From contig NZ_KL448323.1 in assembly GCF_000709345.1 (NCBI RefSeq), positions 1 through 64,000 of the forward strand: 64,000 bases of DNA. Reading direction: 5' to 3'. The first letter of the stretch is position 1, and each line of letters begins with the position of its first letter. Below the pieces are notes generated by a model, which saw only the letters and a program-made list of their open reading frames with translations, did not search any database and was not told the origin of the DNA. Made by a program: the position numbers and the translations under genes. Positions 2,676 through 58,835 of this stretch are shown piece after piece. The stretch comes from Polaromonas glacialis. GTDB lineage: Bacteria; Pseudomonadota; Gammaproteobacteria; Burkholderiales; Burkholderiaceae_C.

Positions 2676-4627
2676 GCCGTCATACCTGTTTTGGTGAGGA
2701 CCATCTTGCGCAGCGCATAACCGGCTGCGAGCAGGCCGTCAGAAGCTTTTTCGATCGTGGTGGCCAGGTCGTTGGCCAGGAGCATGCCGGCAGGCGAGGC
2801 ATGGAGCGAGATGACAATGCTCTTGCGGGCTTGACGCGACAATTCATCGCACAGCCGCTCCGCGCGCAACATGCGCCAGAGTGTCTGCAGAAACAGGTCG
2901 CTGTCGGCCGCGTCGCCGTGCTCACTGACCTGGCGCGCGATCTCGATGACCTTGACCTGATCCTGAATGGCTGTCAGGGTCGTGTCCGCCAGCTTGCGCA
3001 GCACCTCGGTGACCGGTGTCGGAAGCCCCTGAAGAGGCTCCCCTAGTGTCATGGAGTGGATGAAGAAGGCTTCTTCCAGGGCATCGGCCACATCATCGGA
3101 CTTCTCCAGAAGTTCTACTACCGGGCGCCACCGGCTTTGCCTCTCCGCGCGCTGGCGAGCGTCCATTAGCAGATGATCCGCCTGCCGTTCCCAGGTTTTT
3201 GCGCGCAGTACGAGGCTGGCGCTTTGCGACGAATCCATCGCTGCTCCGTTTTCAAGTGCATCGCACAGTGCCAGCGCAATCGCATGACAGTACGCCGCAT
3301 GCTCGGCCAGCAAATCGAACTCGAAAGTGCGCTGGCGCAGCACGCGAGCGAGCAGCATTTGTGCTTCGTCGGCCACCAGTGCCACAGGCTGCTGCTGACG
3401 CAGCATGATGCTGGACATGCGCAGGAGCGCCAGCAAAAATTCGCTTGCCGATGCCTCCCCTAGAACGTCATCAAGCCGATCACCGACGCGAAAAGCCTCG
3501 CTGTCCACCGCCTGCATTGTGCTGAAAACCAGCCGTTCTCCGCCCGCCAGAAGCCATGCCATGTGTCCCAGTTCCTCATCTGCGGCACGGCGCAGGATCG
3601 CCTGCGCCTGAGGCTTTTTAACGAAGTTCTGCAGGCGTTTGCGGGCGCGGTTCCAGTCAATGACAAACACGATGCGGGAGGCGACGGCCTCGAGTCCGTC
3701 CATGAGCAGCTCGTCGTCATCGGCTTTGAGTTCGGCCTTTCCCACCTGGTACGGCTTGCCTGCATTGAGACCGTCGGAGGTTACAGGGTCGTACACCGTC
3801 CATTCGAAACCTGCGGCCTCCAGCATCTGGCGAAAAAATTCAAAGCGCCCGGCATGAAGATCGGAATAGGTCAGGTTGATGGTGCGATGCTCCACCTCGA
3901 TCACCAGGACATGCACATCGTTGGTGCCAATGTCGTTCTGGATCAGGAGTTGCGAGCCATTGCGGGTCACGGCGGTGTCCAGGCCGGGGTGGTAAAACTT
4001 GAGCGGCGCCGTTCGATGCAGGCCTCGCATGAAGGCTTTGATCAGCGGGCGATCAGCTTCGTCGATTTGCCAGACATGGGCTCCATCAATGTCTTCGGTG
4101 GCGATCTCGCTGGCCATGGCGTTGAGTTGCTTGTGCAAATCCATCACCAGGATATGGAAACTGTCGCCATGCTTTCGGTCTCCACGGGTCAGGTCAGCCA
4201 GTGCCTGAGGCCCAAGCCCTTCCTCGTCTTCCATGACATGAAGTTTCTGCAACCAAAGGTCTCGCCGGGCCATCAGCTCCGGATGACGTTCACGCCCCCC
4301 TTCTGCAAGAGGACGGGCCATCAGGGTTAAATCCGACGCCAGCGCACCAAGCAACTGCCCCAGTTGGGGAATGACCAGCGTCCGGTCATCAAGGTAAGCC
4401 GTCTTGACCAGTTCCTGGAGCCAGGCCGTGCCATGCAGGCCGCACTGCGCAAGCTCCCGTCCCCAGTCTGCCGCAGGGTTATCCGGCGAAGCGGCATGCT
4501 GGGCAGCGGACTGGATCATTGACAGGTACAACTTCAGGCGATCATTCGCCAGCAGCGCCGCCTTGACCCAGGCGGGCATCAGCAGGGATGACTGTCCCAG
4601 GGATGCGACCGCTTTTTCTTTAAGCAT
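2672..4627 (-). CDS. Uncharacterised protein with PhoU/DUF47-like C-terminal region
   Basis: 651 residues, no signal peptide or membrane segment. I do not recognise residues 1 to about 380, which include a mixed alpha/beta stretch with LLIQNDIGTNDVHVLVIEVE and WTVYDPVTSDGLNAGKPYQVG. From about 400 on it is helical, with paired helices and acidic runs (EKSDDVADALEEAFF, LRKLADTTLTAIQD) like the PhoU/DUF47 helical bundles that bind metal and regulate phosphate uptake. It is the first gene of a pair with the dikinase-like gene (4-base ATGA overlap), which argues for a joint phosphotransfer or phosphate-sensing role. The PhoU-like assignment is from pattern only; function unknown. Confidence 0.6.
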   Translation of the reverse strand: MLKEKAVASLGQSSLLMPAWVKAALLANDRLKLYLSMIQSAAQHAASPDNPAADWGRELAQCGLHGTAWLQELVKTAYLDDRTLVIPQLGQLLGALASDLTLMARPLAEGGRERHPELMARRDLWLQKLHVMEDEEGLGPQALADLTRGDRKHGDSFHILVMDLHKQLNAMASEIATEDIDGAHVWQIDEADRPLIKAFMRGLHRTAPLKFYHPGLDTAVTRNGSQLLIQNDIGTNDVHVLVIEVEHRTINLTYSDLHAGRFEFFRQMLEAAGFEWTVYDPVTSDGLNAGKPYQVGKAELKADDDELLMDGLEAVASRIVFVIDWNRARKRLQNFVKKPQAQAILRRAADEELGHMAWLLAGGERLVFSTMQAVDSEAFRVGDRLDDVLGEASASEFLLALLRMSSIMLRQQQPVALVADEAQMLLARVLRQRTFEFDLLAEHAAYCHAIALALCDALENGAAMDSSQSASLVLRAKTWERQADHLLMDARQRAERQSRWRPVVELLEKSDDVADALEEAFFIHSMTLGEPLQGLPTPVTEVLRKLADTTLTAIQDQVKVIEIARQVSEHGDAADSDLFLQTLWRMLRAERLCDELSRQARKSIVISLHASPAGMLLANDLATTIEKASDGLLAAGYALRKMVLTKTGMTA

Positions 4628-31256: not shown

Positions 31257-32974
<1,718 letters not shown>

Positions 32975-55322: not shown

Positions 55323-56534
55323 ATGAGCACACCATTTCCCACCATCAACGAATCCTTGCTGGCCGAGCAGGGCACCGATATGACACCTAAAGTGCCAGTT
55401 CAGGCCCGCCCGCCAGCGCCATCCAGCCCGGCGCGCGCCCTGCTTCCCGGCAAAGGCCCGCTGCTGACCCGCAGCGGCTGGAGCGCCTTCGTCATCGCGC
55501 TGATCGTCATCTGCGCCTTGGCGCCGGTGCTCAACCTGTGGGTGCACGAAGGCCATGCGCTGCACCTGAGCACCTACGCGGTGGCGCTGCTCGGCAAGAT
55601 CATGTGCTACGCCATTGCCGCGCTGGCGATGGACCTGATCTGGGGCTACACCGGCATTTTGTCGCTCGGCCACGGTGTGTTTTTTGCGCTCGGCGGCTAC
55701 GTGATGGGCATGTATTTGATGCGCCAGATCGGCGCGGACGGCAACTATAAAAGCGACTTGCCCGACTTCATGGTGTTCCTCGACTGGAAAGAGCTGCCCT
55801 GGCACTGGACCTTCAGCGACAGCTTTGTCGGCACGCTGTTCCTGATCGTCGCGGTGCCGGGCATCGTGGCCTTTGTGTTCGGCTACTTTGCGTTTCGCTC
55901 GCGCATCAAGGGGGTCTATTTTTCGATCATCACGCAGGCCATGACCTTTGCCGCGATGCTGCTGTTCTTTCGCAACGAGACCGGCTTTGGCGGCAACAAC
56001 GGCTTTACCGATTTCAAGCGCATCCTGGACATTTCGATTGCCACGCCGGCTATGCGCATGACGCTGTTCGTCATGACAGGCTTGACGCTGCTGGGTTTCT
56101 TCCTGTTCGCCAAATGGCTGGTCGGCAGCAAGTTCGGCCGCGTGCTGCAGGCGATCCGTGATGCCGAAACGCGCGTCATGTTCTCGGGCTACAGCCCGCT
56201 GGGCTACAAGCTGACGATCTGGGTGATCTCGGCCGTCATGTGCGCCGTAGCCGGTGCGCTGTACGTGCCGCAGGTCGGCATCATCAACCCGGGCGAGATG
56301 AGCCCGGCCAACTCGATTGAAATCGCCATCTGGGCGGCCGTAGGCGGGCGCGCCAGCCTGATCGGGCCGATTGTCGGCGCCTTCATCGTCAACGGAGCCA
56401 AGAGCTGGCTGACGGTGGCCTACCCCGAGTTCTGGCTTTATTTTCTGGGGGCGTTGTTCATTGGAGTGACCTTGTTTTTGCCCAACGGCGTCGTCGGGCT
56501 GGTGAAGAAACTCCGCAAGGGAGGTGAGCAATGA
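55323..56534 (+). CDS. urtC: Urea ABC transporter permease UrtC
   Basis: 403 residues, LivM-type. It has a longer polar N-terminus (55 residues), then about ten membrane segments with AMDLIWGYTGILSLGHGVFFALGGYVMGMYLMRQIG and NETGFGGNNGFTDFKRIL, characteristic of UrtC. Its TGA overlaps the urtD ATG. Confidence 0.96.
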   Translation: MSTPFPTINESLLAEQGTDMTPKVPVQARPPAPSSPARALLPGKGPLLTRSGWSAFVIALIVICALAPVLNLWVHEGHALHLSTYAVALLGKIMCYAIAALAMDLIWGYTGILSLGHGVFFALGGYVMGMYLMRQIGADGNYKSDLPDFMVFLDWKELPWHWTFSDSFVGTLFLIVAVPGIVAFVFGYFAFRSRIKGVYFSIITQAMTFAAMLLFFRNETGFGGNNGFTDFKRILDISIATPAMRMTLFVMTGLTLLGFFLFAKWLVGSKFGRVLQAIRDAETRVMFSGYSPLGYKLTIWVISAVMCAVAGALYVPQVGIINPGEMSPANSIEIAIWAAVGGRASLIGPIVGAFIVNGAKSWLTVAYPEFWLYFLGALFIGVTLFLPNGVVGLVKKLRKGGEQ

Positions 56535-57409
56535 CCCCCGACCTGCTGGAAGAGGGTGCGCGCCGGGTTGAACGCCATGGCGCGGCGCCGACGGGCCTCA
56601 ACAACACCGAATCCGGCGGCCGTAACGCCAGCACCGGCCGTATCAGCACGCCGGGCGAAGTCGATGTGACCCATGGCCGCATCCTGTATCTGGAAAATGT
56701 CAGCGTCAGCTTCGACGGCTTCAAGGCCATCAACAAGCTTTCACTGGACATTGCGCCGGGCGAGCTGCGCTGCATCATCGGGCCCAACGGCGCTGGCAAG
56801 ACGACGATGATGGACATCATCACCGGCAAGACCCGGCCCGATGAAGGCACGGTGTTTTTCGGCAGCACGATTGACCTGCTGCGCCACAAGGAGGCCGAGA
56901 TTGCGCAGCTCGGCATTGGCCGCAAGTTCCAGAAACCGACGGTGTTCGAGCAGCTCACGGTGTTTGAAAACCTGGAACTGGCGCTGAAAACCAACAAGGG
57001 CGTGAAGGCGTCGATGTTTTTCCGGCTGGACTCGCTGCAAAGCGACCGGCTGGCCGAGATTTTGGTGACGATTCACTTGGCTGGCAGCGTGAACCGGCTG
57101 GCGGGCAACCTGAGCCACGGGCAAAAGCAGTGGCTGGAAATCGGCATGCTGTTGATGCAGGACCCGAAGCTGCTGCTGCTCGACGAGCCGGTTGCTGGCA
57201 TGACCGATGAAGAGACTGCGCGAACGGCGGAGCTGTTTTTGACGCTCAAGGGCAAGCATTCGCTGATGGTGGTCGAGCACGACATGAGCTTTATCCGGAC
57301 TATTTCCGAGATTGTTACGGTGCTGTGCGACGGGTCTGTTTTGGCGCAGGGGACGCTGGACCAGGTGCAGGCGGATGAACGGGTGATTGAGGTTTATCTT
57401 GGGCGCTGA
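56531..57409 (+). CDS. urtD: Urea ABC transporter ATPase UrtD
   Basis: 292 residues. A 45-residue polar start, then Walker A IIGPNGAGKTTMMDIITGKTRP near 85, the UrtD-like GRKFQKPTVFEQLTVFENLELAL, the signature LSHGQKQWLEIGMLL near 195 and Walker B LLLLDEPVAGMTDEE. LivG-type. The start overlaps urtC in ATGA. Confidence 0.96.
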   Translation: MTPDLLEEGARRVERHGAAPTGLNNTESGGRNASTGRISTPGEVDVTHGRILYLENVSVSFDGFKAINKLSLDIAPGELRCIIGPNGAGKTTMMDIITGKTRPDEGTVFFGSTIDLLRHKEAEIAQLGIGRKFQKPTVFEQLTVFENLELALKTNKGVKASMFFRLDSLQSDRLAEILVTIHLAGSVNRLAGNLSHGQKQWLEIGMLLMQDPKLLLLDEPVAGMTDEETARTAELFLTLKGKHSLMVVEHDMSFIRTISEIVTVLCDGSVLAQGTLDQVQADERVIEVYLGR

Positions 57410-57478
57410 TATGGGCTTTGGCGGCTTTGGCGGCTTTGGTGTTTGCTCGTGGCTGGGTTACCGCTGCTTGCACTTGCT

Positions 57479-58096
57479 GGCCGGGGGTAGCCCGGCGGCT
57501 ACTCACTTTCTTTTGCTTCGCCAAAAGAAAGTAAGCAAAGAAAAGGCGACCCGACTGTCCGGGTCCCTACGCTGCGCTACGGGCAACCTGCGCTGCCCCG
57601 GAAAAACGGGGGTCGGCGCAAACTCGCTTCACTGCGTTGCGCTCAAACAGCGCGCCGCCCTGATCCCGTTTTTCCGGGGCATCACAGGCCCGGACAGACG
57701 GGACAGGCGGGGAAAAAAACCAAACAGCCAACAGCCACCGCGCCCATGCCGAAATTATGAATGCTACTAATTCAATAGCTGCTTGCGCAGGCGTAGAAAG
57801 CGGAAACAGCACTTTTTACGCAAAAGTGAGCGCATATGACCCCGAATCCGAATCCGCTCCCGCTCCCGCTCCCGCAAGTCCCGTTCTGGCTGAGCCTGTG
57901 AGAGTCCATCAAAACGGGATCAGGGCCGCGCGCTGTTTGAGCCGCAGGCGAGTTTGCGCGGACCCCCGTTTTGATGGGCTCTCACAGGTTGCCCGAAGCG
58001 AAGCGAAGGGACTCAGACAGTCGGGTCGCCTTTCTTTTGCTTACTTTTCTTTGGCGAAGCAAAGAAAAGTGAGTTGCCGCCGGGCAACCCCCGGCC
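57479..58096. repeat. Long imperfect inverted repeat (arms about 190 bases) between urtD and urtE
   Basis: Left arm 57479-57673 and right arm 57911-58096 match as reverse complements over nearly their whole length. Shared blocks include GGCCGGGGGT-GCCCGGCGGC, AAGAAAGTAAGCAAAGAAAA, GGCGACCCGACTGTC, GGGCAACCTG and AACGGGGGTC-GCGCAAACTCGC. Each arm also has its own small hairpin (TTTTGCTTCGCCAAAA). The centre (57674-57910) holds an interspersed repeat copy at 57761-57815 and no ORF. It splits the urt operon by 731 bases and would form a giant hairpin in any urtABCDE transcript. Confidence 0.85.
57761..57815. repeat. Interspersed repeat copy in the centre of the urtD-urtE inverted repeat
   Basis: ATGCTACTAATTCAATAGCT, GCTTGCGCAGGCGTAGAAAG, CGGAAACAGC: the family core in the plus orientation. 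It sits between the arms of the long inverted repeat. Confidence 0.65.
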
Positions 58097-58140
58097 TCCC
58101 AACATTGCAAACCTCTGCTGCCATTCCGGGAACAAAGTCA

Positions 58141-58835
58141 TGCTGACAGTCAAAAACATCAACCAATACTACGGCGGCGGCTCCCACATCCTGCGCGATG
58201 TGAGCCTGGAAGCGCATCTGGGGAAAGTCACCGTCCTGCTAGGCCGCAACGGCGTCGGCAAGACCACGCTGCTGAAATCCCTCATGGGCCTGGTGCCCAT
58301 CAAGACCGGAACCATCGAATTCAACGGCAAGCCAATCCAGAACGCCACTCCTTACGAGCGAGCAAGGGCCGGCATCGGCTTCGTCCCCCAGGGCCGTGAA
58401 ATCTTCGCCCGCCTGACGGTCGAGGAAAACCTGCGCATGGGCCTGGCCTACAAAAGCGCCAGCACGCCGATTCCCGCCGAACTGTTCGAACTGTTCCCGG
58501 TGCTCAGGCAGATGCTCAACCGCCGGGGCGGCGACCTGTCGGGCGGGCAGCAGCAGCAACTCGCCATTGCCCGGGCGCTGGCCGCCAAGCCCACGCTCCT
58601 GATCCTCGACGAGCCGACCGAAGGCATCCAACCCAGCATCATCAAGGACATCGGCCGGGTCATCCGCATGCTTGCCGACCGGGGCGACATGGCGATTTTG
58701 CTGGTCGAGCAGTACTATGACTTCGCCGAGGAACTGGCCGACGACTACCTGGTGATGGAGCGCGGCGAATTCATCGCGCGCGGGCAGGGCCGGGACATGC
58801 AGGCCAATGGCGTGCGCCAGCTGGTGGCGATTTGA
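58141..58835 (+). CDS. urtE: Urea ABC transporter ATPase UrtE
   Basis: 231 residues from the ATG at 58141. MLTVKNINQYYGGGSHILRD at the start, Walker A LGRNGVGKTTLLKSLMGL near 37, the LivF-type GIGFVPQGREIFARLTVEENLRMGL, signature LSGGQQQQLAIARAL near 136, Walker B LLILDEPTEGIQPS and a late VEQYYDFAEELADDYLVMERGE. Last gene of urtABCDE. Confidence 0.96.

Follow-up and report, generated by a model that had tools for sequence, protein, structure and literature searches.

In the window (the whole 64,000-nucleotide stretch of Polaromonas glacialis DNA that was analysed), the gap between urtD and urtE is filled by a single copy of a repeat unit that is dispersed and non-coding, has paired ends, and occurs in beta- and some gammaproteobacteria; this inverted repeat is more interesting for its ends than for its giant stem. 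In each end a Y1.R2 hairpin is kept together with a third run, mirroring R2, and a helix between the hairpin loop and the tail, a putative triplex-pseudoknot geometry disclosed by covariation and not by chemistry. The reading we favour, with somewhat better than even confidence, is that of a dispersed paired-end unit whose ends fold as a triplex-pseudoknot and serve as a handle for spread in trans, and which acts at urt as an intercistronic structure.

If this holds, the third run and the loop-tail helix are under selection across several genera, and the ends are compact natural triple-helix candidates through which a long-suspected bacterial structure becomes testable by mutation. The reading also offers an account of a repeat common between Comamonadaceae genes, for which no name was found; the literature searched, which took in few subscription journals, contained no recognisable description of such an A/T-rich unit, and the words Burkholderia, Acidovorax, and Pasteurella are absent from PMC4666352.

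The repeat unit between urtD and urtE

The five proteins UrtA-E of the host operon all exceed their curated NCBIfam cut-offs. The earlier note had described at this place a giant imperfect inverted repeat, with arms of about 190 nt around a centre of 237 nt; the location stands, but the arms comprise 234 and 226 nt and the centre 158 nt. Each end, read inward, comprises (i) P1, a G+C hairpin; (ii) the run Y1, a loop, and the run R2; (iii) a linker; (iv) the run R3; and (v) a tail. The features are as follows, with the evidence in parentheses.

56531..57409, + strand: urtD, upstream neighbour (NCBIfam TIGR03411, 389.2 bits against a cut-off of 304.1)
57479..57712, + strand: left arm of the unit (BLAST and inverted-repeat search)
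57485-57504, + strand: left terminator-like site at P1, for transcripts coming from urtD
57487..57502, + strand: left-end P1, a small G+C hairpin, then a T-rich run (covarying pairs)
57506..57531, + strand: left-end hairpin Y1-loop-R2, type A (sequence, covariation)
57537..57549, + strand: left-end R3, mirroring R2, and loop-pairing tail (mirror rule, loop-tail pairing)
57587..57688, + strand: left-arm inner hairpin, 24-nt stems 57587-57610 / 57665-57688 (stem sequence differs among copies)
57713..57870, + strand: centre of the unit (72-79% alike to the centres of five further own-genome copies)
57871..58096, - strand: right arm of the unit (BLAST and inverted-repeat search)
57895..57988, - strand: right-arm inner hairpin, 24-nt stems 57895-57918 / 57965-57988 (repeat search, alignment)
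58026..58069, read on the + strand: right end, type B, starting with the loop-pairing tail
58030-58069, + strand: within the right end, third pyrimidine run 58030-58039, linker, Y1 58044-58053, loop, R2 58060-58069
58073..58088, + strand: right-end P1, a small G+C hairpin (covariation, terminator-like site)
58140..58835, + strand: urtE, downstream neighbour (NCBIfam TIGR03410, 343 bits against a cut-off of 285.8)

According to BLAST the two arms, 57479-57712 and 57871-58096, are 81% alike as reverse complements, and the inverted-repeat search resolves them into outer arms of 149 nt (57479-57627/57948-58096, 85% complementary) and an inner block of 58 nt (57641-57698/57885-57942, 81% complementary). 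The right arm lies 43 nt from urtE. On the + strand the right end follows the pyrimidine-motif order, class IV of Holder et al., and a degenerate end pattern matches it at 58030-58052. Two mechanical ORFs of 127 and 129 aa span the inverted repeat, putative reading frames for whose status as genes no support was found. Rfam gave no match at gathering score within the unit and, below that score, only weak and implausible microRNA matches. Elsewhere in the window, the Rfam 5' ureB sRNA family (RF02514) matches 32525-32814 on the + strand with 122.5 bits.

Copies, layout, and taxonomic range

The proposal of the earlier note that the arm is a multicopy element of this bacterial family is borne out by 20 BLAST rows for the left arm in its own genome (including itself and short echoes of a 24-nt palindrome), by a left-arm match in at least 21 of 41 genomes, own included, and by 90 stretches carrying a 46-letter end pattern in named genome contigs. 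Counting the copies of the arm in its own genome, a check proposed in the same place, gave nine arm-bearing loci: six, the window copy counted, are pairs in arm-centre-arm order, two of them with IS30 in one end, and three are single-arm loci, one of them split by IS30; a tenth place holds a short fragment. Both ends, the arms, and much of the centre are common to six aligned copies, and the further suggestion of two separate insertions finds no support, the arm-centre-arm layout recurring as one unit. A second motif, of the AATTCAATAGCTGCTTGCGCA type, occupies window positions 57760-57789 and is also present in several own copies at their centre; at the right flank of locus L056 it seems on visual inspection to adjoin the unit.

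Among the 80 of 90 end-pattern matches that were listed, the hosts comprise Polaromonas, Acidovorax, Variovorax, Simplicispira, Rhodoferax, Ramlibacter, and Amantichitinum, together with metagenome-assembled genomes (MAGs) named Nevskiaceae and Gammaproteobacteria. Matches in plasmid records extend to Variovorax, Paraburkholderia, Burkholderia, Pasteurella, Aeromonas, and Pseudoalteromonas, and in a single P. caribensis record 53 strong end matches and 50 short palindrome echoes were counted. Phages gave no match to the repeat, and E. coli genomes none to window positions 58000-58100. The interior of the unit varies more than its ends: the Variovorax interior is partly alike to that of the window unit (59% of the query covered), and in Pasteurella and Paraburkholderia the match is limited to the ends (17% and 8% covered, respectively). 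A search with the Variovorax locus returned, among the best 12 of 497 records, itself and matches to its neighbour genes.

The ends face each other in 55 of 56 neighbouring pairs not more than 1.2 kb apart, with a spacing of 420-1091 nt (median 587). A further 28 ends with 1 kb of room have no partner within 1.2 kb, five of them lying in IS-split own copies, and 29 ends in this pairing count sat at contig edges.

The Pasteurella multocida copy (L180, 4001-4421) lies between dapF and a DUF484 gene, inside a gene row, in a record labelled as a plasmid whose genes look chromosomal. In the centre of a Variovorax unit (L184, about 3310-3430), inspection by eye suggests two TM-ECO-like, G/C-rich repeats in inverted orientation, so that one triplex repeat is seemingly nested in another.

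Architecture and covariation of the ends

The conserved part of the unit is the outer ~75 nt of each arm, where the runs comprise T/A with mostly one C/G, R3 is the mirror image of R2, and the loop pairs with the tail after R3. A mirror of at least 7 nt is present in 236 of 237 parsed unique ends, against a mean of 146 and a maximum of 166 when R3 is shuffled among the ends (0 of 2000 shuffles as high); 58 of the 237 attain a score of 7 as direct repeats. The 43 unparsed ends, out of 280 unique ends, are truncated, IS-split, decayed, or mismatched. Since many loci had been found by pattern, the 114 ends picked up by the two exact search patterns were dropped, after which the mirror rule is obeyed by 122 of 123 ends, 44 of which come from one Paraburkholderia record; elsewhere it is obeyed by 78 of 79.

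The degenerate pattern, which permits mirror and non-mirror forms alike, gave a similar picture. In the genus (61 genomes searched, 34 matching, the best 15 listed), 146 of the 150 matches listed are mirrors, one is a direct repeat, and three have lost a G; in the order (120 genomes), all 53 matches are mirrors, 42 of them outside the own genome. Beyond the two common types, five classes show runs changed in step. Three of these are symmetric, mirror and direct repeat being indistinguishable there; the other two are asymmetric and therefore distinguish them, namely (i) AAGAGAAAG with AAAGAGAAGG, in five ends from Polaromonas, Acidovorax, a gammaproteobacterial MAG, and a genome of the class; and (ii) AAGAAAAG with AAAAGAAGG, in one Variovorax end.

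A 4-bp pairing between loop and tail, taken as the best of six registers, is present in all 68 ends with readable tails, 71 of 87 ends being parsed for this comparison and three of those having cut tails. The pairing reads CGCC/GGCG in 57 ends and differently in the other 11, e.g. GTCC/GGAC, GGTC/GACC, and CACC/GGTG; at least one of the 16 unparsed ends (L249, second end) has by eye no such pairing. Over all 87 aligned ends the loop-tail helix is 90.0% paired, with double changes in four of its five pairs, and the 23 proposed pairs are 89.7% paired, with both-side changes in 17. Double-change cells number 210, compared with 57.6 in shuffles (0 of 500 as high) and 14-52 in slid controls. Of 103 non-redundant ends, 16 are absent from this alignment, namely seven additional ones from Paraburkholderia, six that are split, decayed, or partial, and three others.

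The third run and the loop-tail helix change in step with the hairpin, and this constitutes independent evidence of a selected triplex-pseudoknot. The same data bear on the alternative of a neutral relic, in which the repeats would be dead and their hairpins complementary only via template-switch correction during replication, with no selection. Correction between hairpin arms can create compensated palindromes, and some ends are indeed decayed, truncated, or split, as the unparsed fraction attests; the R2-R3 mirror and the loop-tail pairing are nevertheless unexpected from hairpin-arm correction alone, and we regard such a relic as improbable.

Types A and B are defined here by the place of the G in the runs. 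Both types are joined in 30 of the 38 units with both ends typed (25 of 63 units had an untyped end), a set biased by the many loci in which one end had been preselected as type B. A hand count of the pairs not selected by type, among the matches listed, gave 18 A+B, 8 A+A, 1 B+B, and 2 untyped, so that the preference, at 18 of 27 typed pairs, is milder than 30 of 38 suggests. The two common types could be old haplotypes kept by descent. Further inward, the inner hairpins of the arms vary strongly and remain largely paired within the arm.

The predicted triple-helix pseudoknot

Taken together, palindrome, mirror, and loop-tail helix correspond in geometry to an intrastrand triple helix that an H-type pseudoknot closes. 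Both window ends (57506-57546 and 58030-58069), like 236 of 237 parsed ends, display the elements of an intrastrand triplex motif, defined by runs of 6-15 nt, a Watson-Crick hairpin plus a mirroring third run, and loops of up to 6 nt; in addition, pairing between loop and flank spans the third strand, as in an H-type triple-helix pseudoknot. The third strand of the predicted triplex is read from covariation alone.

The fold would form in single-stranded nucleic acid, either displaced or replicating DNA or RNA, and the folding strand would be the one with the pyrimidine third run. Among the mispairs of the ends, counted on the pyrimidine-motif strand, 92 are G.T/U and 20 are A.C, and another 111 fall in neither class; a single column pair accounts for 50 of the 92, and the mispairs of the inner arms show the opposite bias. 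This polarity lends support to the pyrimidine-run strand as the likely folding strand. The folded end, in turn, would be the handle by which a factor acting in trans spread the unit.

A more specific version, which we put forward only tentatively, is that the ends would be widespread natural RNA triple-helix pseudoknots, folding in transcripts with U.A-U and C+.G-C triples on the pyrimidine-motif strand and a loop-flank helix; they would either stabilise 3' ends or mark the end at which a mobile element is recognised. The concerted changes of hairpin, third strand, and loop-tail helix would then reflect maintenance of the fold across beta- and gammaproteobacteria, and the mobile element would move via a single-stranded or RNA form. 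Pyrimidine-type intrastrand triplexes occur as RNA too, according to the available text of PMC4666352.

The giant stem

The earlier note held that a transcript crossing the repeat would form a huge stem and could separate urtE expression from urtABCD. That a transcript could fold so is supported by prediction, well beyond chance: for the RNA of 57470-58105 the minimum free energy (MFE) comes to -413.8 kcal/mol, whereas 20 dinucleotide shuffles average -233.9 (sd 7.0, z -25.7), none of them being as low, and the three parts folded apart give -278.3 kcal/mol. The giant stem is the best fold of the unit. The evidence that evolution keeps it is mixed. Within a unit the arms are more alike than shuffled mates (identity 0.743 against 0.706, 0 of 5000 shuffles as high), in a comparison where kinship is uncontrolled; the mate is the nearest arm in sequence for none of 126 arms, and co-evolution of the giant stem is thus not clearly seen. 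Evolutionary upkeep of the stem appears doubtful, and the clear co-variation, as far as the alignments tell, belongs to the local end structures.

Two opposite insertions forming a giant RNA stem, with urtE separated from urtABCD in the manner of RNase III acting on Neisseria Correia elements, would be a very improbable account of the feature. The predicted fold, the likeness of arms within units, and the precedent of Correia element transcripts cut by RNase III (MITE review PMC10969869, in its available text) speak for it; the recurrence of the pair as one unit and the arm comparison speak against it. For the separation of urtE from urtABCD taken by itself, the terminator-like sites at both ends of the unit leave room.

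History at the urt locus and elsewhere

UrtE is matched in 45 of 61 genomes of the genus, and 30 loci, own included, were compared: 13 carry both ends, five one end, and twelve none, three of the five one-end loci lying on cut stretches and one locus without ends (L083) being cut 144 nt upstream of urtE. On the urtD-urtE tree, the 18 loci with and 12 without the unit need 4 changes, compared with a mean of 9.6 when shuffled (0 of 500 as low), which argues for an old insertion with few gains or losses; by this tree the unit at urtD-urtE is old. In 10 of 13 cases the most similar unit again comes from a urt locus, within a comparison set that has few other units of the same genome.

Between the sister rows L064/L067, L065/L066, and L081/L086 (bootstrap 84-88) the unit differs in orientation as a whole, and likewise in L072/L079, but there the closest units sit elsewhere; the simplest explanation of such flipping is recombination between the two inverted ends. 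By eye, the urtD-urtE spacers of L062, L064, L072, L080, and L083 contain remnants of a GTTCGGGCTGAGC..GTCGAAGCC-type repeat or its complement, which stand beside the unit or replace it.

Presence differs between species at both loci examined. At the own locus 3097828, the flank alignments of at least six relatives are separated by just 13-32 nt, and in the closest of these, G024, the gap stretch belongs to another repeat. Locus L277, the site matching 3097828, holds a different palindromic insert of ~150-170 nt, the other relatives having a short gap.

Siting and transcription

Gene context, assigned by a simple ORF rule, was callable for 37 of the 51 units given, of which 16 have convergent, 19 tandem, and 2 divergent neighbours. 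The 90 other gaps in the same loci comprise 6 convergent, 60 tandem, and 24 divergent, so that convergent gaps are enriched (Fisher p = 3.5e-6) and divergent gaps depleted (p = 0.007). The window copy displays four terminator-like sites, against 1.5 (sd 1.2) in shuffles: two face inward, one per end, and two outward.

These data give some weight to a host-useful RNA element acting mainly in transcripts at gene 3' ends, an unlikely reading in our estimate, though the most serious of the rivals considered. P1 and the T-rich Y1 would slow or end transcription from whichever side it enters, and at the far end the pyrimidine-motif pseudoknot would be a barrier to 3'-to-5' exonucleases, a role that REP elements and triple-helix RNA ends have in other systems. 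The excess of terminator-like sites with its inward pair, the enrichment between convergent genes, the polarity of the end mispairs, and the long retention at urtD-urtE are all consistent with it. On the other hand, the remaining two sites face outward, avoidance of divergent gaps is also expected from harm to promoters, and the paired inverted layout with similar ends in distant taxa resembles mobility. According to the available text of PMC4666352, moreover, TM-ECO repeats displayed neither promoter nor terminator activity in an earlier study.

Sited between a stop and a start codon and touching neither gene, the urt copy would, on the favoured reading, probably be mainly an intercistronic structure that, as a guess, damps read-through or stabilises the upstream RNA.

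Mobility and transposases

Terminal inverted repeats of the kind found in miniature inverted-repeat transposable elements (MITEs) are present. No target-site duplication was resolved at the own locus 3097828 in at least six relatives, the flanks being too diverged, and P. caribensis relatives with records ~78-92% alike offered no clean empty site. No cognate or mobilising transposase was found at the Y1 transposase gene locus of the own genome or in the long copies inspected. An origin of the RAYT/REPIN kind was considered and rejected, the sole Y1 transposase gene (PF01797) of the own genome having no such end nearby; within its 3.3-kb locus the end profile reaches a best E of 0.87, in this genome only.

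Nor did the long copies inspected reveal an autonomous parent: what makes them long is the insertion of IS elements from three unrelated families, the transposases inside them belonging to IS30, IS256, and IS5 family insertions. These copies comprise three of the own genome and two of three from the P. caribensis megaplasmid (all but L217). In all three IS30-bearing own copies (L051, 2556-4302; L052, 2499-4322; L053, 2280-3643), the IS30 family element occupies the same point, between linker and R3, which makes the end itself an insertion target.

Comparison with known systems

BIME/REPIN elements comprise paired inverted REP sequences with palindromic conserved ends and a variable middle, and are extragenic, often at 3' ends. 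The present unit shares with them the inverted pairs of palindromic ends around a variable middle, but is longer than a REPIN, its end would be three-stranded as judged from covariation, and no end motif adjoins the Y1 transposase gene in the own genome. Telomerase RNA likewise combines a third pyrimidine strand, a stem, and a loop pairing with the flank; unlike it, the present ends have no known ligand or partner, and their fold is deduced from covariation only. MITEs such as Correia/NEMIS and ERIC are also non-coding and intergenic with inverted ends, whereas here, among the copies and sites inspected, neither a parent IS nor a target-site duplication was found and the ends are, on the covariation, folded motifs.

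The BRE is a dispersed betaproteobacterial repeat of ~90 bp, with 29 copies in Polaromonas sp. JS666, often in tandem and with 69% G+C in Bordetella (PMC3110155, available text). Compared by description only, it resembles the present unit in being dispersed and present in Polaromonas, and differs from it in the frequent tandem arrangement and the 69% G+C.

Bacterial intrastrand triplex motifs have been known since about 2000, while support for a significance of their third strand to the cell had been wanting. In the PIT elements of Hoyne and Maher and the TM-ECO repeats of Holder et al. (2015, PMC4666352), as far as the available text describes them, a Y run, an R run, and a mirroring third R run follow one another as in the present ends, and the elements are likewise intergenic and multicopy. 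According to the same text, TM-ECO forms a triplex as isolated DNA, in vivo footprinting gave no support for a stable triplex, and inverted pairs join two types in 5 of 5 cases, compared with 18 of the 27 typed pairs listed here; the labels themselves differ, types A and B denoting the loop sequence in TM-ECO and the G position in the present ends. The G/C-rich TM-ECO consensus CCCTCNCCC...GGGNGAGGG...GGGNGAGGG does not describe these ends, which consist of T/A runs. Unlike TM-ECO, the present elements are A/T-rich with usually one G per run, add a covarying loop-tail helix and a P1 hairpin, and form units of several hundred nucleotides with long arms in other hosts. The bacterial intrastrand triplex motifs (PIT/TM-ECO) are the closest known kind, to which the unit adds features beyond those described for them, and it is classed with these and not as a REPIN.
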